DNA of 64,000 nt. Source: Sphingobacteriales bacterium (GTDB taxonomy: Bacteria > Bacteroidota > Bacteroidia > Sphingobacteriales > Sphingobacteriaceae). Positions 29,841 to 51,719 of this stretch are shown piece by piece. The notes under the pieces were generated by a model. The model did no database searches. It had not been told where the DNA came from and saw only the letters and a program-made list of their open reading frames with translations. The DNA lies in assembly GCA_028288165.1 (NCBI GenBank), contig JAQBOG010000033.1:186001-250000 (forward strand), written 5' to 3'. Position 1 is the stretch's first letter, and the number at the start of each line of letters is the position of its first letter. The position numbers were made by a program, and so were the translations under genes.

Positions 29841-29922
29841 CCTCATCCCCAACCCTTCTCCAGAGGGAGAAGGGAGATAAAGCGTCATCTGACTTTCTCC
29901 TAGTGGAGAAGGTTGTTTTATA
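29841..29922. repeat. CCTCATCCCCAACCCTTCTCC-type extragenic palindrome
   Basis: CCTCATCCCCAACCCTTCTCCAGAGGGAGAAGGGAG plus a second hairpin CTTTCTCCTAGTGGAGAAGG; first part recurs at 38871. Confidence 0.65.
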
Positions 29923-31318
29923 ATTCGACTTCCTGATGACGTTCGGGAATATTTACAGACTTAAATCCCTTTTCGAGAATTCGGTTTCTAAACTTTTGTT
30001 GAACGTCCAGTTCTCCATGAACAAGGAATACCTTTTTTACATGCTCTGGATCTTGACAGGACAGAAACCGTAACAAATCTTCGTAATCGCCGTGGGCGCT
30101 CATTGATTTAATACTCCTAACCTCCGCCTGAACACTGAATTCTTCTCCAAAAATTTGAACAAATGGTTTACCAGCTAAAAGCTTTCCTCCTAACGAACTC
30201 GGTTCACAATAACCCACCATTAAAATAGTATTCTTTTGGTTATTGATATTATTTCGGATATGATGTTTCACCCTTCCTGCTTCGGCCATGCCCGACGATG
30301 AAATTATTACACAAGGTCTTGGGTCGTTATTTAAGGCCTTAGATTCTTCTACCAACTCAATAAATTTCAGGCCTTTGAAACTGAAAATATCGTCATCAAT
30401 TTTTAAAACCTCTTCTACATCTTTATTGAAAACTTCCGAATGATCTTTCAAAACTTGGGTGGCTTTTAACGAAAGTGGACTGTCCACATAATACTGAAGA
30501 TCCGGCAGTTTTCCTTTCAATTCAAGGGCATTCAAAGCATATAAAATCTCTTGCGTTCTACCAACACTAAATGCAGGGATTATTAATTTACCATTTTTCA
30601 CGATGCATGTTTGATGGATCACCTCTGCTAGCTGCTCTTCTGTTGGCTCCAAATCTTTATGCAACGAATCTCCATACGTAGACTCTAAAAGAATCACATC
30701 GGCCTGCGAAAACGGTTGGGGTGATTTTAATAGCAAATCACCATATCGACCCACATCTCCACTAAACGTTATTTGAGTCATTTTACCATCTTCGAGAATG
30801 GTTAGATGCACGGCTGCACTGCCAATAATATGCCCCGCATCTGTTAAATGAAGTGTTACCCGAGGTTCAATTTCAAAATCAGTGTTATACTCTACAATTT
30901 TAAACTGCCGCAGCGCCTCAATTACATTATCTTCTGTGTATAACGGCTCTAGTAATGGCAGGCCTTTTTGTACCCGGTGCCGATTGGAATATTCCGAATC
31001 CTGAACCTGAATACGAGCAGAATCCATCATAAGAATTCTCGCCAAATCCATGGTTGGTTCTGTGCAATATATATTTCCTGTGAATCCTTGCCCAACTAAA
31101 AGCGGAATTAATCCACAATGGTCAATGTGGGCATGTGACAAGATCATATAAGTAACCTCAGTCGGATCGAAACCGAATTCCTCATTCATCTCGTCGGTAT
31201 CTTCGCCCAAACCCTGGAACATGCCGCAGTCTAAAAGTATTTTCGTCCCGTTATTTAAAGTGATCAAATGTTTGCTGCCGGTTACATTTTGTGCAGCTCC
31301 GTGGAAGGCTAGTTTCAT
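29918..31318 (-). CDS. MBL-fold metallo-hydrolase with beta-CASP/RMMBL domain (RNA-processing exonuclease-like)
   Basis: 466 aa; SHAHIDHCGLIP, LLESTYGDS, ISSSGMAEAGR, SAHGDYEDLLRF. Confidence 0.92.
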   Translation of the reverse strand: MKLAFHGAAQNVTGSKHLITLNNGTKILLDCGMFQGLGEDTDEMNEEFGFDPTEVTYMILSHAHIDHCGLIPLLVGQGFTGNIYCTEPTMDLARILMMDSARIQVQDSEYSNRHRVQKGLPLLEPLYTEDNVIEALRQFKIVEYNTDFEIEPRVTLHLTDAGHIIGSAAVHLTILEDGKMTQITFSGDVGRYGDLLLKSPQPFSQADVILLESTYGDSLHKDLEPTEEQLAEVIHQTCIVKNGKLIIPAFSVGRTQEILYALNALELKGKLPDLQYYVDSPLSLKATQVLKDHSEVFNKDVEEVLKIDDDIFSFKGLKFIELVEESKALNNDPRPCVIISSSGMAEAGRVKHHIRNNINNQKNTILMVGYCEPSSLGGKLLAGKPFVQIFGEEFSVQAEVRSIKSMSAHGDYEDLLRFLSCQDPEHVKKVFLVHGELDVQQKFRNRILEKGFKSVNIPERHQEVEL

Positions 31319-31682: not shown

Positions 31683-32084
31683 ATGAAAAATTATTTATTA
31701 CTACTGCTGATCTGCTGCGGTCTAATCTCCAACTCTCAAGAATCAAGTGACTCAACTAAGAACGACTTCGCCTTTATTGAAGTTCTTCCAGAGTTCCCGG
31801 GAGGCATTCTCAGCTTAAGTAATTATATTTCCAGAAATCTCAAATATCCTGAAGTCGCCTATATGCTTGGTATTGGAGGGAAAGTACTTGTTGAATTTGC
31901 TGTTGAAAAAGATGGCACTGTTACAGATGTCCAACCGAAATCATGTATCGGAGCAGGCTGCGAGGCAGAGGCAGTGCGAATCTTGAATAATTCGCCTAAA
32001 TGGAAGCCTGGAATTCAAAATAGCCTACCTGTTAGAGTTATGTATACACTTCCAATCAATTTCCCCAAAACCGGGGGTCGTTAA
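31683..32084 (+). CDS. Secreted stand-alone TonB C-terminal domain protein
   Basis: 133 aa; signal peptide directly followed by FAFIEVLPEFPGG...GKVLVEFAVEKDGTVTDVQPK...ILNNSPKWKPGIQNSLPVRVMYTLPINF, parallel to the TonB at 15699-16523 but with no Pro-rich linker. Confidence 0.85.
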   Translation: MKNYLLLLLICCGLISNSQESSDSTKNDFAFIEVLPEFPGGILSLSNYISRNLKYPEVAYMLGIGGKVLVEFAVEKDGTVTDVQPKSCIGAGCEAEAVRILNNSPKWKPGIQNSLPVRVMYTLPINFPKTGGR

Positions 32085-32269
32085 TCTTCATAAATAACCT
32101 CCGAAATTCAAAGTTCCTGTTTCTCTTCTTAATCGAAGGAAAAGAATATCTGTTAGATGAAGCTGAAAAATTATTGGGTCCAAACTTTGAAAAATCAACT
32201 ATTGAAAGTGCCGAAAAATATCCGTACCAAGAGAAATACTCTTTCTCAGATAAAAAGAGGTCTATCTAA
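32085..32269 (+). pseudogene. Possible gene remnant without a start codon
   Basis: Open frame with no ATG reading NNLRNSKFLFLFLIEGKEYLLDEAEKLLGPNFEKSTIESAEKYPYQEKYSFSDKKRSI*. Confidence 0.3.
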
Positions 32270-32380
32270 TTAAAATAAAAAAGCAGGTAGAAGTAAAATA
32301 GAATTGGTGAGCCTTTTTATAGAAACGGCAGCAAGTTGTATAATCATCCCTTACTGATTACTTTACGAAGTAAAAATATC

Positions 32381-32411
32381 AACCGGACTTCCATCCGGTT
32401 TTTTTATTTTT
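32381..32411 (+). terminator. Rho-independent terminator upstream of blaI
   Basis: AACCGGA-CTTCCA-TCCGGTT followed by TTTTTATTTTT. Confidence 0.8.
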
Positions 32412-32433
32412 AAGCATAACTAAGAAAATAGTT

Positions 32434-32457
32434 GTATAACTAAATATTTAGTTATAC
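32434..32457. promoter_or_regulatory. 24-bp perfect palindrome, candidate BlaI-family operator overlapping the blaI/M56 promoter
   Basis: GTATAACTAAATATTTAGTTATAC equals its own reverse complement; lies between TTG (32432-32434) and TACCTTTA (32455-32462), spacing 20 nt, upstream of the BlaI-family gene. Confidence 0.8.
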
Positions 32458-32505
32458 CTTTAATATATAGGTTCAAGATCATACGCAAACCCCAATTCAA
32501 TAAAT

Positions 32506-32877
32506 ATGGAAATTAAAGAACTAACCAAAGCGGAAGAACAGATTATGCATGTACTATGGGATTTGGAAAAAGCCTTCGTGAAAGACATCATTGATGTTTT
32601 GCAAGAACCCAAACCAGCATATAATACTGTTTCTACCATTATCAGAATACTTGAAACAAAGGGATTTATAGATCATGAAGCTTTTGGTAAAAGTCATCGG
32701 TACTTTCCGGTTATCAGCAAAGAGATTTATAAAAATTTCGCCACCGAAAAACTCATGATCGGCTATTTCGAAAACTCGGTAGAGAGCATGTTTTCTTACT
32801 TTATGAAAGAGAAGAAAATAGACCTGAAAGAGGCTGATGAAATACTTAAGCTAATCGAAAAATTTAAGAACAAATAA
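32506..32877 (+). CDS. BlaI/MecI/CopY family transcriptional repressor
   Basis: 123 aa; LTKAEEQIMHVLWDLEKAFVKDIIDVL...PAYNTVSTIIRILETKGFIDHEAFGKSHRYFPV winged helix. Confidence 0.93.
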   Translation: MEIKELTKAEEQIMHVLWDLEKAFVKDIIDVLQEPKPAYNTVSTIIRILETKGFIDHEAFGKSHRYFPVISKEIYKNFATEKLMIGYFENSVESMFSYFMKEKKIDLKEADEILKLIEKFKNK

Positions 32878-32878
32878 T

Positions 32879-34648
32879 ATGGAAAGCCTTCACTATCTAG
32901 TTTTGGTGAACCTGTACCTGTTGCTGTTTTACGGGTTTTATCACCTATTGCTTCGAAATGAAACCTTTTTCAGGTTGAACCGAATTTATTTGGTCGGCTC
33001 AGCATTAATGAGCTTTATCATTCCTTTCATTCAATTAGAATGGATTAAATCACTTTTTATAACGAGTAAAGTACAGGAGTTTACTTTCGTATACTCAATG
33101 ATTGGCACACCCACTTCTACACGACTTCAACAAACTCAAGTAACAACCGGTGATATACTAGCTGTCATTTATTTAATAGGCTTGGCCGTTTTCTCAATCC
33201 GATTTATAGTACAGCTGATAAGCATTCAAATCGATTTTAATAAGAGGAACACCGGCGAAGCCTTTTCCTTTTTTAAACAGATAAAAGTGGATAGCAACTT
33301 AGCAAACCATGACGTTATTATGAAACATGAGCAAGTACATGCAAAACAGCTTCATTCGGCCGACGTCATTTTATTTGAGCTAATTGCAATCATGAACTGG
33401 TTTAATCCGGTTGTGTATTTTTATAAAAAAGCCATAAAAAACCTTCATGAATTTACCGCAGATGAGGTTGCTGCATTTTATGCTGACAGTAAAAATAACT
33501 ATTCGATGATTCTCCTTAGTAATGCCTTTGGCGTGGAACCTCATCAACTAACCAACAGTTTTTTCAATAAATCATTACTTAAACAACGAATCTATATGTT
33601 AAATAAAACAAAATCGAAAAAAGCAGCCATTCTGAAGTATGGCCTGTCTGTACCACTTTTTGCGGGTATGTTAATCTTATCATCTGCTACCGTTAAAGAG
33701 AAAGTAGAAGCATCGGAGCAAATTGCCAAGCTTGAACCTCAAAATCTTAAAGAAGTAGTAAGTACAATTCCCGAAGTCATCAGTAAAAAGTTCTCTTCGA
33801 GTGTAGCCTCTCAACCTGTTTCCACAATGAACACACTGATTGATACCACTGAAAAGGTGCAAGATTTTGTTAGGAAAAACTATAACTTACCAATAGCATT
33901 AAAATTAGAGGTAGATGGACGAGAGACTGGGATTAATATAAAGTCACAAAACCCAAATGCAATATATGTACTTAATGGCAAAGAAGTCGAAAAAGAAGTA
34001 TTTAATAGTCTCGATCCTAAGTCCATCGAATCGATAAATGTTTTAAAGGACAAATCTGCTACCAACAAATACGGTGACAAAGGGAAAAATGGTGTAATTG
34101 AAATTGCCACAAAAACAGATCTAAATTTAAAGCAATCTGGAGAAACAAAATATTTAGCAGATGACAGCGTGGTTTTCATCAAACAAACAAACGAGGTAAG
34201 ACTTTATGGAAATCCGCAGATAGACTTAAATCTGCAAAACCCAAATGTTCTGTATATCATCAATGGCAAAGAAGCTGATAAAGACGTTGCTCAAGCTCTT
34301 AAACCTTCTGTCATCAAATCGATGAACGTGTTAAAAGACAAATCTGCCATCGACAAATATGGCGAAAAAGGGAAAAGTGGTGTCATTGAGATTACCACAA
34401 AAACGGCTAGTGATAACAGTTCAACTCAGGTAAACATTCAATCGACCAATAAAAATAAGAATATCGACTTCAAAGGTATGGTTTTCATAAACGGGAAAGA
34501 AAAGGATAATAGTAATGGAGATGCACTCAAATCGTTAAAACCTGAAGACATTAAATCTATGAATGTTATTAAAAGTGAAGATGCGATAAAAAAATATGGC
34601 GAGAAAGGGAAAAATGGCGTCATAGAAATTACTCTTAAAAAAGAATAA
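32879..34648 (+). CDS. M56-family (BlaR1/MecR1-like) membrane metallopeptidase with three C-terminal TonB-receptor-plug-like repeats
   Basis: 589 aa; TM segments, MKHEQVHAKQLHSADV (HExxH) and NLHEFTADE; three copies of x-x-NGKE...IxSxNVLKDKSAxxKYGxKGKxGVIEITTK; starts 2 nt after the blaI stop. Confidence 0.9.
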   Translation: MESLHYLVLVNLYLLLFYGFYHLLLRNETFFRLNRIYLVGSALMSFIIPFIQLEWIKSLFITSKVQEFTFVYSMIGTPTSTRLQQTQVTTGDILAVIYLIGLAVFSIRFIVQLISIQIDFNKRNTGEAFSFFKQIKVDSNLANHDVIMKHEQVHAKQLHSADVILFELIAIMNWFNPVVYFYKKAIKNLHEFTADEVAAFYADSKNNYSMILLSNAFGVEPHQLTNSFFNKSLLKQRIYMLNKTKSKKAAILKYGLSVPLFAGMLILSSATVKEKVEASEQIAKLEPQNLKEVVSTIPEVISKKFSSSVASQPVSTMNTLIDTTEKVQDFVRKNYNLPIALKLEVDGRETGINIKSQNPNAIYVLNGKEVEKEVFNSLDPKSIESINVLKDKSATNKYGDKGKNGVIEIATKTDLNLKQSGETKYLADDSVVFIKQTNEVRLYGNPQIDLNLQNPNVLYIINGKEADKDVAQALKPSVIKSMNVLKDKSAIDKYGEKGKSGVIEITTKTASDNSSTQVNIQSTNKNKNIDFKGMVFINGKEKDNSNGDALKSLKPEDIKSMNVIKSEDAIKKYGEKGKNGVIEITLKKE

Positions 34649-40759: not shown

Positions 40760-43081
40760 TTAAGCAATCAACTTATAACCTGCAACCACACTTTCGTTAG
40801 CTTTAATCGTATACGAGTTACCGTAAATAGTGACCGTAACTTCTTCACAGCATCTGTTTAATAAATAAATTCCTGTTTTATCAATCTTCATGCTTAAAGA
40901 AATACCTCTAAAATGAATATTGAAAGAATAAGATGTCCACTTTTGTGGTAAAAATGGATTAAATGCTAAAGAATTATCTTTCACTTTCATTCCTGCAAAA
41001 CCTTCTACCACACTCATCCAAGTCCCAGCCATTGACGTAATGTGCAAGCCATCCTCCGTATCGTTGTTATAATCATCCAGATCTAATCTGGCCGTACGTA
41101 AATAAAAATCGTATGCTCGCTGTTCATCTCCCAAACGGGCAGCTAAAATACTATGCACACAGGGCGACAGTGAACTTTCATGAACGGTACGAGGCTCGTA
41201 ATAGTCGAAATTCCGTTTCAAGGTATCCTGGTCATAACGATCTTCAAAAAAGTACATTCCTTGAAGCACATCTGCCTGTTTAATAAACGGCGAACGTAGA
41301 ATGCGATCCCAACTCCAATTCTGATTTAATGGTCGTTCGGCTGAGAGTAAATCAGATACTAAAATCTCTTCCTTATCCAAAAAACCATCCTGCTGAAGGA
41401 AAATGCCTTTTTCAAGATCTTCCGGATAAAACATGTTTTCTATAATGTGTTTCCAGTAGGATGTTTCTTCATTAACCTTTAAATTAAGCTTTTTAAGCAG
41501 ATCGCCACACCTTTCAGCACTTGTAGATCTTACATAATCTAGCGCTTCCAATGCATATTCCAGACACCAAGCAGCAATGGTATTTGTATACCAATTATTG
41601 TTTACGTTATTTTCATATTCATTTGGTCCAGTAACTCCCAGCATCACATATTGCTGCTTAGATACGCTCCAATTAACCCGCTGACTCCAAAAACGGGCAA
41701 TTCCAACTAAAACTTCTAAACCGTAATCTGCCAGGTAACCTGCATCGCCGGTATAACGGATGTAGTTATAAATCGCATACGCAATAGCTCCATTCCGGTG
41801 AATTTCTTCGAACGTAATTTCCCATTCATTATGGCATTCTTCGCCATTCATGGTAACCATCGGGAACAAAGCAGCACCGTTTTTGAAACCTAGCTTTTCT
41901 GCATTTTCAATGGCTTTACCAAGTTGATTATACCGATAAATTAACAAGTTCTTAGTCACCTGTGCATCTGCTGTTGCCAAATAAAAAGGCACACAATACG
42001 CTTCGGTATCCCAATACGTAGAACCGCCATATTTTTCACCAGTAAATCCTTTTGGGCCAATGTTCAGCCTTGAATCTTCTCCAGTATACGTTTGGTTCAG
42101 TTGAAATATATTAAAACGGATACCTTGTTGAGCAGCCACATCACCTTCAATTACAATATCACTTTCCTGCCATTTCAAAGCCCAGGCAGCTGATTGTTCT
42201 TGCAGCATTTTCTCAAAACCCTTCACTACACAGTTTTTTAGAACTTGTTTACAATGATCTAATAAACGCTCTTTTGGATGATTTTCGGAAGATAAATTTG
42301 CTGCGTATTTATAAATAACAACCTCCTGGCCTTGCTCTGTTTGCACTTCCACTCGGTTGGCAACATATTTCTCTTTGCTTATAATATTCGGCGCTAGATT
42401 CAGCTGGTCACCATTTTGAGAAACGGTAAACATCATCCCTGTACATACTTCAAACTGAGTTTTAAATGTCCTGAGAGTTAAATAAGCACTTCCTTCATTC
42501 GCTTCACGAGTAACTTCCGACCAAAACTTCTCATCGTAATTGGCGTCCTGATTTCTGATATCACCATCTATATAAGGAGTAATCGTAAGAAGGCCGGTAA
42601 AATTTATAGGCGTAATAACATATCTTATCGCACCAGCTTCCTGATCTACAATGCTGCAAAAGCGTTTGGCATTTACTTGTATTTGCTTCCCATTTTCAAA
42701 CTCGGCTGTAAAGGAGCGCTCCAGATAACCATCTTTCATGTTTAATACACGCAGAAAATCATGCACTTTACAATCAGCTAAATCCAAAAATTCACCATCA
42801 ACTTGAATATCAATGCCTATCCAGTTTGCTGCATTTAAAACCTTGGCGAAATATTCCGGATATCCGTTTTTCCACCATCCAACACGGGTTTTGTCCGGGT
42901 AATAAACACCGGCTACATATGAGCCTTGCATGGTATCGCCCGAATAGGTTTCTTCGAAATTAGCCCGCTGACCCATACGGCCATTACCCAGACTAAAAAT
43001 GCTCTCCGAAATTTTATTTAAATGAGGATCAAAGTCTTTTTCAATGATTTTCCACTCATCTGCTAGTAAGTAATTTTTCAT
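40760..43081 (-). CDS. GH65 glycoside phosphorylase (maltose phosphorylase-like)
   Basis: 773 aa; ESIFSLGNGRMGQRANFEE, GVTGPNEYENNVNNNWYTN, next to beta-phosphoglucomutase. Confidence 0.9.
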   Translation of the reverse strand: MKNYLLADEWKIIEKDFDPHLNKISESIFSLGNGRMGQRANFEETYSGDTMQGSYVAGVYYPDKTRVGWWKNGYPEYFAKVLNAANWIGIDIQVDGEFLDLADCKVHDFLRVLNMKDGYLERSFTAEFENGKQIQVNAKRFCSIVDQEAGAIRYVITPINFTGLLTITPYIDGDIRNQDANYDEKFWSEVTREANEGSAYLTLRTFKTQFEVCTGMMFTVSQNGDQLNLAPNIISKEKYVANRVEVQTEQGQEVVIYKYAANLSSENHPKERLLDHCKQVLKNCVVKGFEKMLQEQSAAWALKWQESDIVIEGDVAAQQGIRFNIFQLNQTYTGEDSRLNIGPKGFTGEKYGGSTYWDTEAYCVPFYLATADAQVTKNLLIYRYNQLGKAIENAEKLGFKNGAALFPMVTMNGEECHNEWEITFEEIHRNGAIAYAIYNYIRYTGDAGYLADYGLEVLVGIARFWSQRVNWSVSKQQYVMLGVTGPNEYENNVNNNWYTNTIAAWCLEYALEALDYVRSTSAERCGDLLKKLNLKVNEETSYWKHIIENMFYPEDLEKGIFLQQDGFLDKEEILVSDLLSAERPLNQNWSWDRILRSPFIKQADVLQGMYFFEDRYDQDTLKRNFDYYEPRTVHESSLSPCVHSILAARLGDEQRAYDFYLRTARLDLDDYNNDTEDGLHITSMAGTWMSVVEGFAGMKVKDNSLAFNPFLPQKWTSYSFNIHFRGISLSMKIDKTGIYLLNRCCEEVTVTIYGNSYTIKANESVVAGYKLIA

Positions 43082-43167
43082 TTAATAGCAGTATTAAAAC
43101 TGACTTTCATATTCATTATGCTGTATTTCTATAATCAATAGATATGATTTTTTTATCCTTTAAGTTT

Positions 43168-43265
43168 GGGCGTGCCCCAAGGGTCGGGCTTTCCGTTGCA
43201 AGTCCTCGCACCAATAAAAAAATTGGTACTGTGGGCTTTTCACTTCAATCCCTCACGCTCTAGCA
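43168..43265 (+). repeat. Structured intergenic repeat, copy D
   Basis: GGGCGTG-CCCCAAGGG-TCGGGCTTTCCGTTGCAAGTCCTCGC-ACCAATAAAAAAATTGGT-ACTGTGGGCTTTTCACTTCAATCCCTCACGCTCTAGCA. Confidence 0.8.
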
Positions 43266-43281
43266 TCTCACAAAAAGAGGC

Positions 43282-43971
43282 TTATAAACTTTTTAATTGT
43301 TCAATTGTTATTTCATGCAATCCAGAAACTACCAGATCCGCATCTTTTAAAATCTCTTGAGTTCCTATTCCAACCACTTTCATTCCGCCAGCTTTGCCCG
43401 CTTGCACACCAGAAACTGCATCCTCGAAAACGATACATTCTTGTGGAGTAACATTTAGCAATTCGGCTCCTTTCAGAAAAACCTCTGGGTCAGGTTTTGA
43501 TGTGCTTACTACATTACCATCAACAATAGCATCAAATAGATCAGCTAAGCCCGTTTTCTTTAAAATAATTGATGAGTTTTTACTTGCTGATCCTAAAGCG
43601 ATTTTAATTCCCGCAACTCTTAATGAATGAAGTAATTCTTTAGATCCTGGTAAAATTTCATTTGGCTCCATCGCATTGATCATTTCTACATACCATTCGT
43701 TTTTACGAGTGGCAAGTACTTGTATTTCTGCGTCCGACATCTCCAAACCTCCCCAACCTAAAATCAGCTGTAAAGATTTTATCCGGTTAATGCCCTTTAA
43801 ATGCTCATTTTGCTCCTCTGTAAAATCGAAGCCCAGTTCATTAGCCAATTTCTTCCAAGCTTTATAGTGGTAAACGGCTGTGTCTACTATTACCCCATCC
43901 AAGTCGAATAAGCATGCTTTGAAGGGAGTTTTAGTTGTATGTTGTAAGTTATAAGTTGTAAGTTCTGGCAT
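43282..43971 (-). CDS. pgmB: Beta-phosphoglucomutase
   Basis: 229 aa HAD; FDLDGVIVDTAVYHYKAWKKLANELGF, LKGINR, LGSASKNS, CIVFEDAVSGVQAGKAGGMKVVGIG. Confidence 0.93.
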   Translation of the reverse strand: MPELTTYNLQHTTKTPFKACLFDLDGVIVDTAVYHYKAWKKLANELGFDFTEEQNEHLKGINRIKSLQLILGWGGLEMSDAEIQVLATRKNEWYVEMINAMEPNEILPGSKELLHSLRVAGIKIALGSASKNSSIILKKTGLADLFDAIVDGNVVSTSKPDPEVFLKGAELLNVTPQECIVFEDAVSGVQAGKAGGMKVVGIGTQEILKDADLVVSGLHEITIEQLKSL

Positions 43972-44012
43972 GGGTTACTAAGTTGTGGGTTGTGAGTTGA
44001 AAGTTGTGAGCA
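43931..44012. repeat. Low-complexity GTTGTAAGTTATAAGTT repeat running into the 5' end of pgmB
   Basis: AGTTGTATGTTGTAAGTTATAAGTTGTAAGTTC...TAAGTTGTGGGTTGTGAGTTGAAAGTTGTGAG. Confidence 0.6.
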
Positions 44013-44035
44013 CTTTCAGATCGGCTTACCCTGAG

Positions 44036-44117
44036 CCATGGTTTGTGTCCCCACAAAACATTATTTATTTTAGTTATTATTTATTTCCATGGTTCCTGTT
44101 CCCACAAACCATTATTT
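44036..44117. repeat. Direct pair of ATGGTTTGTG-type palindromes
   Basis: CCATGGTTTGTGTCCCCACAAAACATTATTTA (44036) and CCATGGTTCCTGTTCCCACAAACCATTATTTA (44087); each is itself an imperfect inverted repeat. Confidence 0.7.
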
Positions 44118-44134
44118 AAAGTGAATACAATCTT

Positions 44135-46009
44135 TTATTTTTTTAATTCTAATACCCAAACAGACTTTGCAGGCACTTTCACTGTTTCAATCGAACCAAG
44201 TTGTTCACCCGAAATAACATTCATAGCTTTGCTAAACCCAGCTGTACGCTCGCTGAACCTTTCGCTTTTTATGCTCTCCTCTTTCTCGTTTGTATTCATT
44301 ACAATCATCACCGTTTTATCTGCATTGTATCTGAAATACACATACATACCATTCTCTGGAACGTATTGCATCAGTTTTCCCGTTTGTAGCACTTCGTTGT
44401 TTTTGCGATAATTCGCTAAGGTTTTAACGTAGTTGAAGGCTTCATTTTCCTTTTCGGTACGACCGGCAACAGTAAATTTGTTTGTTTTATCTCCTGCCCA
44501 TCCACCTTCAAAATCACTACGAACTAATCCATCTGGGTTTGAATTTCCTTTCATTAAGATTTCGTTTCCATAGTAAAATTGAGGAATGCCGCGTGTGGTT
44601 AACAACCAGGCAATACCCGATTTATATTTGCTAAAATCTTCGTTTACAACCGAATAGAAACGACTTAAATCATGATTATCCAGAAAAACCACATTGCGAG
44701 TGGCATCCTGATACATAAAGTCACTAGCGATGGTAGTGTATAATTTATTCACTCCATCATCCCAACCAAACTTTCCGTTTAAAGCTTCATTAATCCCCCA
44801 TAAACATTGAAAATCTGTTACGCCCAGCAACTCCGTATTGAAACCACGATTTATTGTATTTCCCTGAGTAAAATAAACCTGGTTTGGCATCCCACGAACC
44901 CAAGTTTCGGCAAAGAATGTAAATTTTGGGTATTCTGCTTTTATTGCTTTGCCCCATTCTGCCATGTATTCAGCATCGTTGTAGGCATAGGTATCCAAAC
45001 GGAAGCCATCCAGATTTGCATACTCAATCCACCAAATATGGCTTTGAGTAATATAGTTCCTTAAAAATGGATTCGCTTGATTAACATCCGGCATATGGAA
45101 ATCAAACCAGCCGTCTGTCATTTGTTTCTTATCAGATTCAGATGCATACGGATCAAACAAAACCTGATCTTTGAAATTGGATCTGGTAAACTTTGACCAT
45201 TGGTGTACCCAATCTTTAGAGGGCATATCCGTAATGGTAAAATGTTTACTTCCAAAATGATTATGAACTAAATCCATAATCATTTTCATATCCCGTTTGT
45301 GAAGTTCATCAACCAGCTTTTTGTAAAGCTCATTGGTGCCAAAACGAGGATCTATCTTATAATTTTCAGTATTTGCATATCCATGATAAGAAGCTCTTGG
45401 CTGATCATTCGTTAAAACCGGGTTTAACCAAACGGTAGTTACTCCAAGTTCTTGTAAATAATCTAAGTGATTAATAACTCCTTGTAAATCTCCCCCATGG
45501 CGGCTGTACATAGAATCGCGATGAAGAGAAACTTCTTGCATCCCTTTAATTATGTCGTTGCTTTTATCGCCATTGGCAAAGCGATCAGGCATAATCAGGT
45601 AAACAAAATCTTTGTTAGTAACGCCTTGCTTACCTTTTGAGGTAAGGTCGCGTTGCTTAATTTCGTAATTATACTTTACAGCCTTAAGCCCTTTTTTTGT
45701 AAATGATATCAAAAATTTTCCAGGAGTGGCCGATGAAGAAATCTGTAGATCAAGAAATAAATAATTTGGATTTTCTACCTTGTTTACTTTTGTTAGGGTA
45801 ACGCCGGGATATGTCAAACTAACTTCTCTATTGGCTATCTTATCACCATGAACCAAAAGTTGAAGCTTCGGATTTTTCATTCCAGCCCACCAAAAAGCCG
45901 GTTCGATACGCTCCAGAGATGGTATGTTTTGTGACTTTACGCCTGTTACAAAAAAGACAAGAAGTATGAACAGGCTGAATTTTACCTTCATTTTTAAAGA
46001 AATTTTCAA
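44135..46009 (-). CDS. GH13 neopullulanase/cyclomaltodextrinase-like (SusA-type)
   Basis: 624 aa; signal peptide, cyclomaltodextrinase-type N-terminal domain, MIMDLVHNHFGSKH, LDGFRLDTYAYND, FLDNHDLSRF. Confidence 0.92.
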   Translation of the reverse strand: MKISLKMKVKFSLFILLVFFVTGVKSQNIPSLERIEPAFWWAGMKNPKLQLLVHGDKIANREVSLTYPGVTLTKVNKVENPNYLFLDLQISSSATPGKFLISFTKKGLKAVKYNYEIKQRDLTSKGKQGVTNKDFVYLIMPDRFANGDKSNDIIKGMQEVSLHRDSMYSRHGGDLQGVINHLDYLQELGVTTVWLNPVLTNDQPRASYHGYANTENYKIDPRFGTNELYKKLVDELHKRDMKMIMDLVHNHFGSKHFTITDMPSKDWVHQWSKFTRSNFKDQVLFDPYASESDKKQMTDGWFDFHMPDVNQANPFLRNYITQSHIWWIEYANLDGFRLDTYAYNDAEYMAEWGKAIKAEYPKFTFFAETWVRGMPNQVYFTQGNTINRGFNTELLGVTDFQCLWGINEALNGKFGWDDGVNKLYTTIASDFMYQDATRNVVFLDNHDLSRFYSVVNEDFSKYKSGIAWLLTTRGIPQFYYGNEILMKGNSNPDGLVRSDFEGGWAGDKTNKFTVAGRTEKENEAFNYVKTLANYRKNNEVLQTGKLMQYVPENGMYVYFRYNADKTVMIVMNTNEKEESIKSERFSERTAGFSKAMNVISGEQLGSIETVKVPAKSVWVLELKK

Positions 46010-46029
46010 TTTGATTGTTAGATAAAGAA

Positions 46030-46059
46030 GTAAATACCCCGCCGAAGCCGGGCATTTAC
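46030..46059 (-). promoter_or_regulatory. Intercistronic hairpin with UUCG tetraloop between susE-like and GH13 genes
   Basis: Minus strand GTAAATGCCCGGC-TTCG-GCGGGGTATTTAC; almost continuous stem, no T-run. Confidence 0.6.
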
Positions 46060-46079
46060 ATATTGAATTAACCCCCCAA

Positions 46080-47096
46080 CTACAATTTCGTAAGTGTGTA
46101 CTTGTTGTTAATTAGATCAAGTACCACTTTATAATTTCCAGCTTCAGTTACTGGTATGTCAGTTCCACCTAGCGTTCCCACAGTAGCATAACCGAAGTTT
46201 ACAGCCCAGTCATGATTTTTTCTGAACTTGAAAGCTCCAACGCCCATATCTACCGTAGCAGACCATGTTTGTTTTCCGTTATCATATTTCATATCTATAT
46301 CATTAGACCAATTACTTCCAACTGGAGCATTACCAATGACACCCCACACTAAAGGACTAAACACTAATGTATTAGCATTTATATCCGCAACTAATTCGTA
46401 GCTACCAGCCGCTGGTGCCGAAAGATCACCACCACCCACGGCGATCGTACCATCTGCAGAACCTTTACCATATTCAGGTGGTCCCCAAGATTTTTGGGTT
46501 AATATTTTAAACCCAAGATTTCCCGCCGTGTAGTTAATAACACCTTTATAAATACCGTTACTTGTGGCCGATAAAAGGCTATCAGCGGTGGCAGGATTCC
46601 AACCTTGGTAAGCACCAGGCACATATAAGAAAGACGTTAAAGGGTAAGGGTTAACGGTTATGTTTAAAACGTTTGAGTAAATTGGTGCAATGCTATCAGC
46701 AATTGTAGATTTTACCCGGACATCAATTATAGAGTTTATCCCAGTGGGTAAACCCATTTTTAACATCAAAGCATTAAAATCGATTACTGTAAAACTTTTT
46801 TCTAAAGTATTTGCATCTGCTATAATCTCTTGTTTCGTTGCAAAGTTGTTTCCCTTAAGAGATAGTTCAAGTATGTTTTTTACAGCGGCATTATAACCAT
46901 AATCTGTCTTCGTCCAAGAAATTGTAATAGCCGTTTTTGCTGCGTCGGCCTTAGTTAACACTAAATTAGCTGATGTTGCGCTAACAGTTCCCGGAGTACC
47001 AGTTGTAGCAATGGTTAATGTTTCGTCTTTTTGGCAGGATACTAACATCAGTGCCGCAAAACTGAATATATATAATTTATAAAATAGAGATTTCAT
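46080..47096 (-). CDS. susE: SusE/SusF-family outer membrane starch-binding lipoprotein
   Basis: 338 aa; lipobox LVSC, SusE-type N-terminal domain, VPGAYQGWNPATAD repeats. Confidence 0.85.
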   Translation of the reverse strand: MKSLFYKLYIFSFAALMLVSCQKDETLTIATTGTPGTVSATSANLVLTKADAAKTAITISWTKTDYGYNAAVKNILELSLKGNNFATKQEIIADANTLEKSFTVIDFNALMLKMGLPTGINSIIDVRVKSTIADSIAPIYSNVLNITVNPYPLTSFLYVPGAYQGWNPATADSLLSATSNGIYKGVINYTAGNLGFKILTQKSWGPPEYGKGSADGTIAVGGGDLSAPAAGSYELVADINANTLVFSPLVWGVIGNAPVGSNWSNDIDMKYDNGKQTWSATVDMGVGAFKFRKNHDWAVNFGYATVGTLGGTDIPVTEAGNYKVVLDLINNKYTLTKL

Positions 47097-47119
47097 ATCT
47101 GAGTATTTTCGTGCTGAAA

Positions 47120-48718
47120 CTAATATCCTGTATTTTGTATAAGATTTGGATTGGAGTTAATATCTGCCGAAGGTATTGCAAACATACTTCGGAATGATTC
47201 AACCCCTTTGCCACCTTTAACACCACCTTTCCAAGGCCATAAGTAAGTATCTTCTGTAAACTTTTTGAAGCGCACTAAATCTGTACGTCTAAAAGCTTCC
47301 CAGTAAAGTTCCCTACCTCTTTCATCTAAAACATCATTTAAGTTTAAACTGGTGATATTACCTGATGTATTTCCGTACCCACGTTCACGCAGTTTATTGA
47401 TGTAAGATATTGCAGTAGCTTCGCTGCCACCTGCCCCACCTCGTTTAACAGCCTCAGCATATATTAAATACATTTCTGCTAAACGGAATAATGGGAAATC
47501 TGTAGAGCAATAAGTGCCATTATTAGAAGCTGCTGTAACACCCGCTGAGGTGACATTACTAAATTTGGCAACAGCCAATCCGTTATCAAAAGCACTTGGA
47601 TCATCCATTTCAAGCTTGGTTCCCTGAAACATGGCACGTTTATCTGTTGCGCCACTATAATCGCCAAACAATAAAGGAAGATTTTTTGTACTGCGGTTAC
47701 CACCCCATCCGCCATTCGGAACGCCACGTGAGGCAGGGTTTAAAGCAGCATTTGTAGATGCATTGATCAAAAACGTCATCCCTGCAAAGGATTGACCTTT
47801 CACTCCATCATAGTTAATGGATAAGATGGTTTCTGGATTATTTAAGTTGTTATCTGCATTAAACAGATTTTTATATTGAGGAGCCAAAGTGTAACCTGCA
47901 TTAATAACTTTGGTGGCATATGTTATCGCTTCAGCATATTTGGCTTGCCCCGTGTACACTTCAGCGTTCAAATATATCCTTGCAAGTAATGCCCATGCAG
48001 CTGCCTGATCAGCTCTGCCATACTCGTTGGCTTTTGCTGCTACCAGATCTGCATCAATTGCTTTAAGTTCTGATTCTATATAAGTAAACAGATCTGCACG
48101 TTTTATTTGTGGAGGAATATATTTTCCGATAGGATCATTTTCTGTTACAAATGGAGGATTGCCAAACAAATCCATCAAAATAGCATATTGAAAAGCTCTC
48201 AAAAAACGGGCTTCAGCTCTATAATGTTTCACGTCTTCTGCAGCTGCTCCAGTAATACCCCGACTAGCTAATTTGCTATCGTCTGACTCACGAATAAATT
48301 CATTAGCCATTGTTATTTGGTATAAACTTCGGTTATATAAGCCTCTTAAAATTACATTACTGGATGTCCAATTCATGTTATGAAAATCGGGCACTCCCGG
48401 ATCATTCCAAACACAGGCGGCCTCATCTGTTGATAATTCCTGTGCATTCCAATACAGACGTAAAAAATCAGATGTGCCCGCATCAATACCGGCTAAATCA
48501 CTACTACTTTCCCCGTTAGGGCCAGTTAAACCATAACTTGCATAAACTTTAGCTATAACTTGCTTATAACCATCGAGTGAACTATACACCACATTTGATG
48601 TACTTGCATTTGTCGGGACTCTATCCAAGTCCTTAGTACAAGAGGCCAAGCCTACTGTAGAAAGAACGGAAATACTTAATATTTTATATAGATTATTTTT
48701 CATCTCTTTATTTTCCAA
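47120..48718 (-). CDS. susD: SusD/RagB family nutrient-binding lipoprotein
   Basis: 532 aa; TVGLASCTKDLDRVPT, AEARFLRAFQYAILMDLFGNPPFV, FPLFRLAEMYLIYAEAV, ERGRELYWEAFRRTDLVRF. Confidence 0.94.
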   Translation of the reverse strand: MENKEMKNNLYKILSISVLSTVGLASCTKDLDRVPTNASTSNVVYSSLDGYKQVIAKVYASYGLTGPNGESSSDLAGIDAGTSDFLRLYWNAQELSTDEAACVWNDPGVPDFHNMNWTSSNVILRGLYNRSLYQITMANEFIRESDDSKLASRGITGAAAEDVKHYRAEARFLRAFQYAILMDLFGNPPFVTENDPIGKYIPPQIKRADLFTYIESELKAIDADLVAAKANEYGRADQAAAWALLARIYLNAEVYTGQAKYAEAITYATKVINAGYTLAPQYKNLFNADNNLNNPETILSINYDGVKGQSFAGMTFLINASTNAALNPASRGVPNGGWGGNRSTKNLPLLFGDYSGATDKRAMFQGTKLEMDDPSAFDNGLAVAKFSNVTSAGVTAASNNGTYCSTDFPLFRLAEMYLIYAEAVKRGGAGGSEATAISYINKLRERGYGNTSGNITSLNLNDVLDERGRELYWEAFRRTDLVRFKKFTEDTYLWPWKGGVKGGKGVESFRSMFAIPSADINSNPNLIQNTGY

Positions 48719-48722
48719 TTAA

Positions 48723-51719
48723 TTAAAAGCCAAGATTTAAACCTAACACGAAGGTTCTGGCCCTCGGATAAAAGTTGTTATCGATACCGTTATTGATTTC
48801 GGGATCAAGCCCTGAATATTTGGTTACCGTAAAAACATTTTGGCAGTTTGCATAAACATTTAAGTTCATACTACTCTTTGAAAACATTTTACCAACGTTA
48901 TAGCCAATACCCAAGTTATCCATTCTCAAGAATGATGCGTTTTCTATGTAATAATCTGATAAAAATTGATTGTTGCTGAATTGTGAACTAAAAATATTGG
49001 TGGTACTATTTTGCAGATATTGGCCCGGGTTCAGTATATTCCTTTTAACTCCCAGATTAGATGATAAGTTATTATACATATAGTTCCCAATACTTGAACG
49101 TAGAACAGTATTTAGATTCCACTTTTTATATGATACCCGTGTGCTAAAGCCTAACAATATCGGTGCATTCGGAGATTTGTAACGATAAAGATCTTTTTCT
49201 TCGTTAATTATTCCATCACCATTCAAGTCTTCATAAACACCCTCCAGTGGCTTATTGTTGGCGTCGTAAACTTGTTTATACACATAAAAGCTATTAGTTT
49301 GATAGCCCACTGAGTTTACTTGAATATTGGTTCCTGTACCACCACTAATTCCAGAAATTCTATTTCCCGGAAAGCTGGGATCTTCAACTGCCGTAAGCTT
49401 GGTGATCTTGTTTTTATTGTATGTTAAATTGAAACCCAAATCCCAATTCAAATCTTTAGTTGCAACCGGTATAGCACTGATATTAAACTCAATACCTTTA
49501 TTTTCCATATTACCAACGTTGGTTAAAATTTCATTACTGAAATTTGATCCTACTGGGATTGGTATTGTATTTAAAAGATCGGTAGTTTTTTTAAAGTATA
49601 CATCCACACTACCATTGATACGATTATTCAAAAATCCATAATCAATACCTGCATTATAAGTGGAAGTTTCTTCCCATCTTAAATTTTTATCATAAGCAGC
49701 AGGAGTATAACCATTAAAGAAGTTATTACCCAATTGATATTGCGATGTGTTACCGCTTAAACCATAAACTGCTAAATATGGATAGTAATCAATACCTTCC
49801 TGGTTACCTGTTTTACCATAACTAATACGAAGTTTAAGATCTGACAATGATGTCAAGCTCTTAAGGAAGCCTTCCTCGCTAATCCTCCAAGTTAATGCCG
49901 CAGAAGGAAACACTCCCCAACGATTCTCTTTAGCAAATTTTGATGAACCGTCTGTTCGAATTGAGCCAGCTAGAATAAACTTGTCGTTTAACGTATAAAT
50001 TAAGCGACCGTAATAGGATATCAACGTACTTTGGGGTTTATCAAAAGGAAACTTTGGAGTTGTATTAGGAAGTGTATCCATGTTTGCTCTAAAGGATGGA
50101 TAAAAATTATTGGTTGTTAAATTATCATAATAACCATAACCAGCAGTAGCATTAATATTACTTTTAATACTTTTTAGATCTTTGATATAGTTTAAGTAAA
50201 ACTCGCCCACTTTATTATTCACATCTTGGCGATACTTAGTATACGAACCTTGTTGTGAAAAACTTTGAGCAGCTGTTGCAGGTATGTAATTATCACCTTT
50301 ACCGCTTCCAACGTCATAGCCTAAATTTAAATTAGCATGCAATTCTGGTAAAAAATGAAACCTATAATCTAACTGCAAATTTCCAAAGCTTCTTTTAACA
50401 TCACTGTTATTATCCTGCGTTCTAATTAATGAAACAGGATTACGCGTTGCATTTGGGTTTAAGGTAGTAACCCCCCCTACAGTATTTGCCCATTCGAAAT
50501 AATTTCCGAATTGATTAGTATCGTACACAGGCTGAGTAGGATCAAACGAAGCAGCGGCTCCAATAGCACTTTGATTTGCAAAATGTGATTTTGATAAAGT
50601 CCCTTTTAAATTTAAATCAATTTTTAAATGCTCTTTGAAAAACTTTGGGCTAGCGCTCAAAGCACCCGAAGTCCTTTTTAAATTATCAGTTATTAAAACT
50701 CCTTTTTGGGACAAAAATCCGGCAGACACACGATAAGGTACTTTCTTAGTAGTGCCGGTTATACTGATATTGTTATCACTAGATAAAGCCCTTTGAAAAA
50801 TTTCATCTTGCCAGTTAGTATTTTGAGTTCCAAGCATCGCTTTTTGAGAGGCCGTACCATTTGCATTTACGTAAGTCCTGAATTCATCAGCTGTTAAAAC
50901 ATCTATTTGTTTCTGTAATTGAGCCGCCGAAAATTGTGTGTTAAAATTAACAACAGGCTTAGAGCTCTTTCCTTTTTTAGTGGTAATTAGGATAACACCG
51001 TTTGAGGCCCTTGAACCGTAAATAGCAGTAGAGGCGGCATCTTTCAACACTGTAAAAGATTCAATATCATTTGGATTGATCAAGCTTAAAGGATTAGCAA
51101 CTCCCGCCAAACCGCGGTTGCTTCCATTTTTCGGATTGGTGAGTGGAACACCATCAACAACTATTAAAGGATCATTTCCAGCATTGATTGATGCGCCCCC
51201 GCGAATCCGGATTGTGCTGCCACCTCCGGGAGCTCCTCCATTTGAAGTAATTGACACACCCGCGACTTTTCCAACAATTAATTGTTCAGGTGAGACAATG
51301 GAACCTTTTTGAAAGTCCTTAGACGCTACGGTGGAGATTGAACCTGTTAAATCTTTCTTTCTTTGAGAACCATAACCGATTACAACAACTTCATTTAAAG
51401 AAGTAGAAGCAGGTTGTAATTGGAAGCTGACAGTTACACTGCCAGTGGCATTCACTGTTTTTTCCATTTCCTGATAACCTATGTATTTTACGATTACGGA
51501 AACGTTCCCGGAACTAATGCCAGTTAATTTAAAATTTCCGTTAGCATCAGTAGAGGTTTGGTTATCTGTTCCCTTTACAGAAACAGAAGCGCCGGGAAGT
51601 GGTTGGTTGGTTTCGTCTAAAACCTTCCCGCTAATGCTTCCTGTTTGCGCAAAAACCGAAAGGTTTATAAGCACAAAAAAAGCTAGCAATAAGCACTTTG
51701 TTAAATAAAATTGTTTCAT
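48723..51719 (-). CDS. susC: SusC/RagA family TonB-linked outer membrane protein
   Basis: 998 aa; ISGKVLDETNQPLPGASVSVKGT, EVVVIGYGSQRKKDLTGSIS, plug VLKDAASTAIYGSRASNGVILITTKKGK. Confidence 0.96.
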   Translation of the reverse strand: MKQFYLTKCLLLAFFVLINLSVFAQTGSISGKVLDETNQPLPGASVSVKGTDNQTSTDANGNFKLTGISSGNVSVIVKYIGYQEMEKTVNATGSVTVSFQLQPASTSLNEVVVIGYGSQRKKDLTGSISTVASKDFQKGSIVSPEQLIVGKVAGVSITSNGGAPGGGSTIRIRGGASINAGNDPLIVVDGVPLTNPKNGSNRGLAGVANPLSLINPNDIESFTVLKDAASTAIYGSRASNGVILITTKKGKSSKPVVNFNTQFSAAQLQKQIDVLTADEFRTYVNANGTASQKAMLGTQNTNWQDEIFQRALSSDNNISITGTTKKVPYRVSAGFLSQKGVLITDNLKRTSGALSASPKFFKEHLKIDLNLKGTLSKSHFANQSAIGAAASFDPTQPVYDTNQFGNYFEWANTVGGVTTLNPNATRNPVSLIRTQDNNSDVKRSFGNLQLDYRFHFLPELHANLNLGYDVGSGKGDNYIPATAAQSFSQQGSYTKYRQDVNNKVGEFYLNYIKDLKSIKSNINATAGYGYYDNLTTNNFYPSFRANMDTLPNTTPKFPFDKPQSTLISYYGRLIYTLNDKFILAGSIRTDGSSKFAKENRWGVFPSAALTWRISEEGFLKSLTSLSDLKLRISYGKTGNQEGIDYYPYLAVYGLSGNTSQYQLGNNFFNGYTPAAYDKNLRWEETSTYNAGIDYGFLNNRINGSVDVYFKKTTDLLNTIPIPVGSNFSNEILTNVGNMENKGIEFNISAIPVATKDLNWDLGFNLTYNKNKITKLTAVEDPSFPGNRISGISGGTGTNIQVNSVGYQTNSFYVYKQVYDANNKPLEGVYEDLNGDGIINEEKDLYRYKSPNAPILLGFSTRVSYKKWNLNTVLRSSIGNYMYNNLSSNLGVKRNILNPGQYLQNSTTNIFSSQFSNNQFLSDYYIENASFLRMDNLGIGYNVGKMFSKSSMNLNVYANCQNVFTVTKYSGLDPEINNGIDNNFYPRARTFVLGLNLGF

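Follow-up and report, generated by a model that had tools for sequence, protein, structure and literature searches.

In the staphylococcal systems for beta-lactam induction, BlaR1/MecR1 with BlaI/MecI, a signal is received outside the cell, a zinc protease acts inside it, and the repressor is lost. Pairs of M56 proteases and BlaI repressors are already known, and proteins in which a MecR1-like part is fused to TonB were reportedly noted in 2007 by Chu, Peacock and Vogel (Biometals 20:467). Those fusions are not known to have been described with plug domains. Pfam already labels the plugs of M56 proteins as Plug, and no paper on plug-bearing M56 proteins was found in a search of 5.4 million open texts. 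The genomes of Bacteroidota encode tens of SusC-type transporters each, and to our knowledge it is little understood how these bacteria sense the load on the shared TonB machinery.

The locus described here is located in a 64,000-nucleotide stretch of a Sphingobacteriales genome, hereafter the window. It resembles the staphylococcal systems in that a BlaI-type repressor gene lies beside a gene for an M56 protease with four predicted helices, that palindromic operators are proposed before the operon, and that the C-terminal half of the protease should, by homology, be extracytoplasmic. It differs from them in the gene order, which is repressor followed by protease, in that no resistance gene is seen alongside, and in that the protease carries half-plugs as its putative sensor instead of a penicillin-binding domain. 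The main features are:

29918-31318, minus strand: beta-CASP metallo-beta-lactamase-fold RNase, divergent neighbour of blaI-M56 and synteny marker (Pfam, gene-order comparison)
31683-32084, plus strand: 133-aa protein combining a signal-like N-terminus with a TonB C-terminal domain (Pfam TonB_C, E 1e-16)
32419-32452, no strand: tandem ACTA-N6-TAGT palindromes, 20 bp apart (32419-32432 and 32439-32452), proposed BlaI operators (motif search, shuffles)
32506-32877, plus strand: BlaI/MecI-family repressor, 123 aa (Pfam Penicillinase_R, PF03965, E 4.5e-29; MecI 1sd6, E 1e-7)
32879-34648, plus strand: 589-aa membrane zinc protease of the M56 (BlaR1) type, with three half-plug domains in its C-terminal half (ORF translation, Pfam, NCBIfam)

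The reading frame at 32879-34648 and its 589-residue translation are exactly as given in the first-pass annotation, and the BlaI/M56 pair that it proposed holds, with a Penicillinase_R family match in the repressor, the gene for which is located 2 bp upstream. Of the hallmarks of BlaI/MecI proteins, the winged-helix repressor is represented by the family match and the operator by conserved palindromes at the gene's own promoter, for which the operator role is proposed.

The N-terminal half of the protein contains the following segments and residues:

32891-33220, plus strand: three predicted N-terminal membrane segments, approximately residues 5-26, 33-54 and 92-113 (hydropathy; profile conserved in 22 homologues)
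33326-33340, plus strand: HEQVH zinc-binding/catalytic motif, residues 150-154 (invariance in homologues; alignment with BlaR1 8exp)
33449-33451, plus strand: likely third zinc ligand E191 (invariance in homologues)
33623-33688, plus strand: predicted fourth membrane segment, approximately residues 249-270 (hydropathy; BlaR1 alignment)

Peptidase_M56 (PF05569) matches residues 142-241 with 44.2 bits, above the Pfam cut-off of 31. The HEQVH site noticed in the first reading is found at residues 150-154 and is followed by the likely acidic ligand E191, so that the M56 hallmark of HExxH plus a downstream acidic zinc ligand is present. An alignment of 26 homologues shows that H150, E151, H154 and E191 are invariant, and proteolysis therefore appears to matter throughout the family. 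The hydropathy peaks match three helices, the zinc domain and then a fourth helix, and the family-profile residues 146-270 align with staphylococcal BlaR1 (8exp) over the zinc site and the last membrane helix. By analogy, the zinc site would be cytoplasmic and the chain after the fourth segment periplasmic. The best sequence matches in the PDB are to BlaR1 for the zinc region and to RagA for the C-terminal half, which contains three repeats:

33947-34114, plus strand: half-plug domain 1, residues 357-412 (Pfam, AlphaFold model, SusC-only profile)
34235-34402, plus strand: half-plug domain 2, residues 453-508, sister of domain 1 (AlphaFold model, tree, SusC-only profile)
34463-34639, plus strand: half-plug domain 3, residues 529-587, with the C-terminal plug of relatives as its nearest relative (AlphaFold model, tree, SusC-only profile)

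All three motif copies reported previously were recovered in these intervals, and the SusC protein to which they had been likened is present in the window (48723-51719, minus strand). Their likeness to the SusC plug is borne out by Pfam, NCBIfam, a SusC-only profile, the AlphaFold model and the Foldseek match to RagA. The window protein matches Plug (PF07715) with 46.7 bits (E 5e-12, cut-off 23.9) and the SusC/RagA signature TIGR04057 with 78.9 bits, each over three stretches. Scored singly, the repeats (53-56 residues) obtain 20.8, 13.0 and 16.6 bits with Pfam Plug, all under the cut-off, so that the Pfam verdict depends on the sum of the three, and the evidence therefore consists of the three jointly, the SusC-only profile and the structure. 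That profile, built from 23 SusC-type plugs of the sampled genomes, gives 47.9, 35.3 and 30.0 bits on repeats 1, 2 and 3, and none of 2000 shuffled versions of the protein's C-terminal half exceeds 6.5 bits.

The earlier description of the repeats as plugs nevertheless needs to be narrowed, in that they cover positions 42-107 of the 107-position Plug profile, which is its second half alone, and the first half, on the TonB-box side, is missing. The TonB box in transporters sits upstream of the half kept here, and the second half is not known to be what TonB grips. Direct capture of TonB is thus not implied, and homology alone would not predict that the half-plugs bind it. The protein shares with SusC/RagA transporters the second plug half, the RagA fold and the TIGR04057 signature, but differs from them in that it lacks the first plug half, has no beta-barrel domain in its 589 residues according to Pfam, and carries three repeats on an inner-membrane protease. 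No transpeptidase-like (penicillin-binding) sensor domain, the presence of which the first-pass annotation had named as grounds for rejection, was matched in the window protein by Pfam at E-values up to 10. TonB_C is likewise absent from it, both at the threshold of Pfam and by a local profile.

The suggested structural check of the C-terminal half, an AlphaFold model of residues 301-589, shows three confident plug-like folds, each with a pLDDT above 90, while much of the linkers is below 50. Each repeat consists of strand-strand-helix-strand-helix-strand, with the short first helix unassigned in repeat 3, and repeat 2 is folded alike despite having almost no aligned homologue. The top 32 Foldseek matches in the PDB are all TonB-dependent transporters, among them RagA (6sml) with an rmsd of 1.5 A over 52 columns, 40% identity and a probability of 1.00; so short a domain gives E-values that are only modest (0.015). 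The identity between repeats 1 and 2 is 64% over the columns of the tree and 73% at the DNA level, and repeat 3 is similar to the plug at the C-terminus of relatives. On the few columns of the tree, a single SusC origin of all M56 plugs is no more than possible.

To place the window protein in its family, homologues were collected from 80 named loci (Mucilaginibacter, Pedobacter, Emticicia, Arcicella and Hufsiella) and further genomes, which gave 103 distinct close homologues. Matches to the window protein at E 0.001, plug-only matches included, are present in 148 of 151 sampled genomes of the same taxonomic family, and the protein is a member of a large Bacteroidota family. With T denoting the TonB C-terminal domain and P the half-plug, T is present in 98 and P in 89 of the 103 proteins, most often arranged as M56-T-P. 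The architectures are TP (52 proteins), TTP (27), TT (9), TPP (4), T (4) and P (3), and PPP, PTP, PT and none of these domains are found once each. P is the last domain in 84 of the 85 proteins that have both, and it occurs without T in just four of the 103. More distant M56 proteins in the genus and phylum add PP, TTPP, TPTP and TPPT, and in two of them CarboxypepD_reg, which in SusC stands before the plug, is present as well. The presence of plug, TonB_C and CarboxypepD_reg in this position shows that the C-terminal slot is modular and dominated by pieces of the Ton system. The Ton theme of the first-pass annotation is thereby much strengthened, since the family joins half-plugs to TonB C-terminal domains and in some cases to CarboxypepD_reg. 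The proposed survey of plug repeat numbers yields from none to three P among the close homologues, with TP as the usual form, and three P without T is an unusual variant and not the basic design. The notion that plugs had replaced the sensor region is right in that there is no transpeptidase sensor; the local norm is T-P, however, and within the lineage it is TonB_C that has been replaced.

Most relatives thereby resemble the MecR1-TonB fusions in having an M56/MecR1-like N-terminus and a TonB C-terminal domain, from which the window protein differs by its three half-plugs and lack of TonB_C. The same contrast applies to the TonB energy transducers, to which the locus is linked by the TonB_C domains of most relatives, one of which folds like solved TonB-CTD structures, and by the adjoining 133-aa gene. 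In other M56 proteins, the C-terminal region consists of unrelated repeats or short tails. Long repeats of the EWKKQ type, which match no known sensor domain, end three M56 proteins of the genus (L151, L152, L159), including one in the same genome as the window gene (contig C33), and repeated units of the LKALGVD type make up the C-terminal region in two others (L150, L157). One M56-T-T-P gene in a Mucilaginibacter MAG is split into two ORFs (L119:6001-7934), reflecting a frameshift or an assembly error.

The gene order is also conserved. A BlaI gene is located directly upstream of M56 in 68 of 82 genes, and the beta-CASP RNase adjoins the pair in 60 of the 80 named loci, usually divergent from blaI. 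The closest homologues, from two genomes of the same genus, are M56-T-P-P proteins with 55% identity over the protease part and the same RNase neighbour, and the window gene is therefore their syntenic counterpart, without T and with an extra P. At the place of a small MORN-like gene in these two relatives, the window has the 133-aa TonB_C protein, the gene for which ends about 420 bp before blaI. Free TonB_C proteins of similar size adjoin M56 genes in the Emticicia group and in some Mucilaginibacter MAGs, and it is possible that the 133-aa protein is a stand-in for the missing T domain. Its fission from an M56 protein was considered, but the T-domain tree does not group it firmly with any M56 T domain, and this origin remains a conjecture. 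Two other free TonB_C proteins encoded beside M56 genes (L115:3326-3787 and L120:5085-5561) have an N-terminus similar to the final membrane helix of M56 proteins (KFGLS..., KHGLS...), which gives them the look of pieces detached from such a gene. The interval between the TonB_C gene and blaI in the window (32085-32505) contains one remnant-like open stretch of 54 codons, with no Pfam or family match. No transporter gene is conserved beside the blaI-M56 pair in the gene-order comparison, and the gene 3' of M56 in the window is convergent, leaving no third gene in the operon. A reading as a defence system was discarded, as the PADLOC matches were weak, partial and to BlaI alone.

The second of the two tandem palindromes upstream of blaI lies at the centre of a perfect 22-bp palindrome (32435-32456), which occurs nowhere else in the window even when three mismatches are allowed. 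In 95 of 126 regions, as against 4.7 in shuffles, blaI is preceded by sites of the ACTA-N6-TAGT type, often paired and 20 bp apart. The assembly of the window's own genome, which is 69% complete, contains the tandem site once and its reversed control not at all, and hits to single sites do not exceed those in that control. None of the four exact sites inspected away from blaI pointed to a convincing target; one of them, for instance, falls inside a long ORF. With a lone tandem site, no enrichment of single sites and a convergent next gene, the main target of the pair appears to be its own operon, as judged from sequence. Most of the 94 divergent blaI-RNase pairs measured are 80 to 270 bp apart, and the operators in most relatives fall within this short promoter region common to both genes, suggesting that the RNase may be co-regulated by BlaI in these genomes.

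Taken with moderate confidence, these features point to a BlaI/M56 sensor-protease pair of the BlaR1 kind, in which a half-plug sensor in the periplasm docks a Ton or envelope partner and controls the operon. BlaI bound at the two tandem palindromes would repress the blaI-M56 operon, as suggested by the conservation of the operator. The M56 protein would span the inner membrane four times, exposing its zinc site to the cytoplasm and, on the periplasmic side, three half-plugs on flexible linkers instead of the TonB_C and half-plug module found in its orthologues. These half-plugs may serve as docking modules for a protein of the Ton system or the envelope, and contact with the partner, or its release, would alter the protease, leading to cleavage of BlaI and derepression. 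Since the recognisable modules that share the slot are pieces of the Ton system, a protein of that system is the most plausible partner; a TonB-type domain is a candidate, possibly that of the adjoining free-standing TonB_C protein. Several observations weigh against this reading: P is the second plug half only, P without T is rare (4 of the 103 relatives), the free TonB_C gene stands some way from blaI and its T domain groups firmly with no M56 T domain, and gene order shows no conserved transporter gene beside the pair.

A serious alternative, if on the unlikely side, is that T and P are general modules for envelope binding or self-association (peptidoglycan, homotypic contacts) and that the pair senses envelope stress, with nothing that ties it specifically to TonB-dependent transport. 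The EWKKQ and LKALGVD repeats in M56 proteins of the same group indicate that the slot takes many modules, T and P differ greatly in order and copy number between proteins, and the TonB-box side of the plug is absent from P; the sharing of a single slot by CarboxypepD_reg, plug and TonB_C nevertheless exceeds what generic glue would lead one to expect. A more specific proposal, which is rather doubtful, is that the BlaI and M56 sensors of Bacteroidota read the working state of the Ton machinery, with P and T on the protease competing with, or reporting, the engagement of TonB with transporters. The window protein would then represent a split form, having the plugs on the protease and TonB_C secreted separately.

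That the M56 protein is itself the output of a self-controlled operon, its Ton-like domains acting as adaptor, decoy or chaperone of Ton parts while BlaI only sets the level, is improbable. Such an arrangement would fit a genome in which the tandem operator precedes blaI-M56 only and an operon that has no third gene, but it sits poorly with zinc ligands that are invariant family-wide and with the shared promoter region of blaI and the RNase in most relatives, and weaker sites may escape detection in a genome of this completeness. A beta-lactam sensor like BlaR1/MecR1, as the gene pair and the homology to BlaR1 might suggest, is very improbable indeed, given that no transpeptidase domain is found, that the plugs account for the C-terminal half, that no resistance-like third gene recurs beside the pair, and that the neighbouring metallo-beta-lactamase-fold protein is a beta-CASP RNase.

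The preferred reading, a BlaR1-type pair with a docking sensor, suggests that the plug and TonB pieces on M56 proteases represent an uncharacterised way in which Bacteroidota sense the uptake machinery or the state of the envelope, and the widespread pair is a concrete candidate for sensing Ton load. It would extend the BlaR1 mechanism far past beta-lactams, with a defined operator, and half-plugs would be employed as stand-alone periplasmic modules. Labels such as "penicillinase repressor" or "BlaR1" should accordingly not be equated with drug sensing in these genomes. One blaI-M56(TT) pair, in a genome of the same genus, is divergent from a series of sigma-factor-like, FecR-like and SusC-like genes (L233:5704-11001). 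Elsewhere in the window, a starch-type Sus locus (40760-51719, minus strand) encodes SusC, SusD, SusE and a GH65 hydrolase and is accompanied by alpha-amylase-like genes and a sugar transporter.
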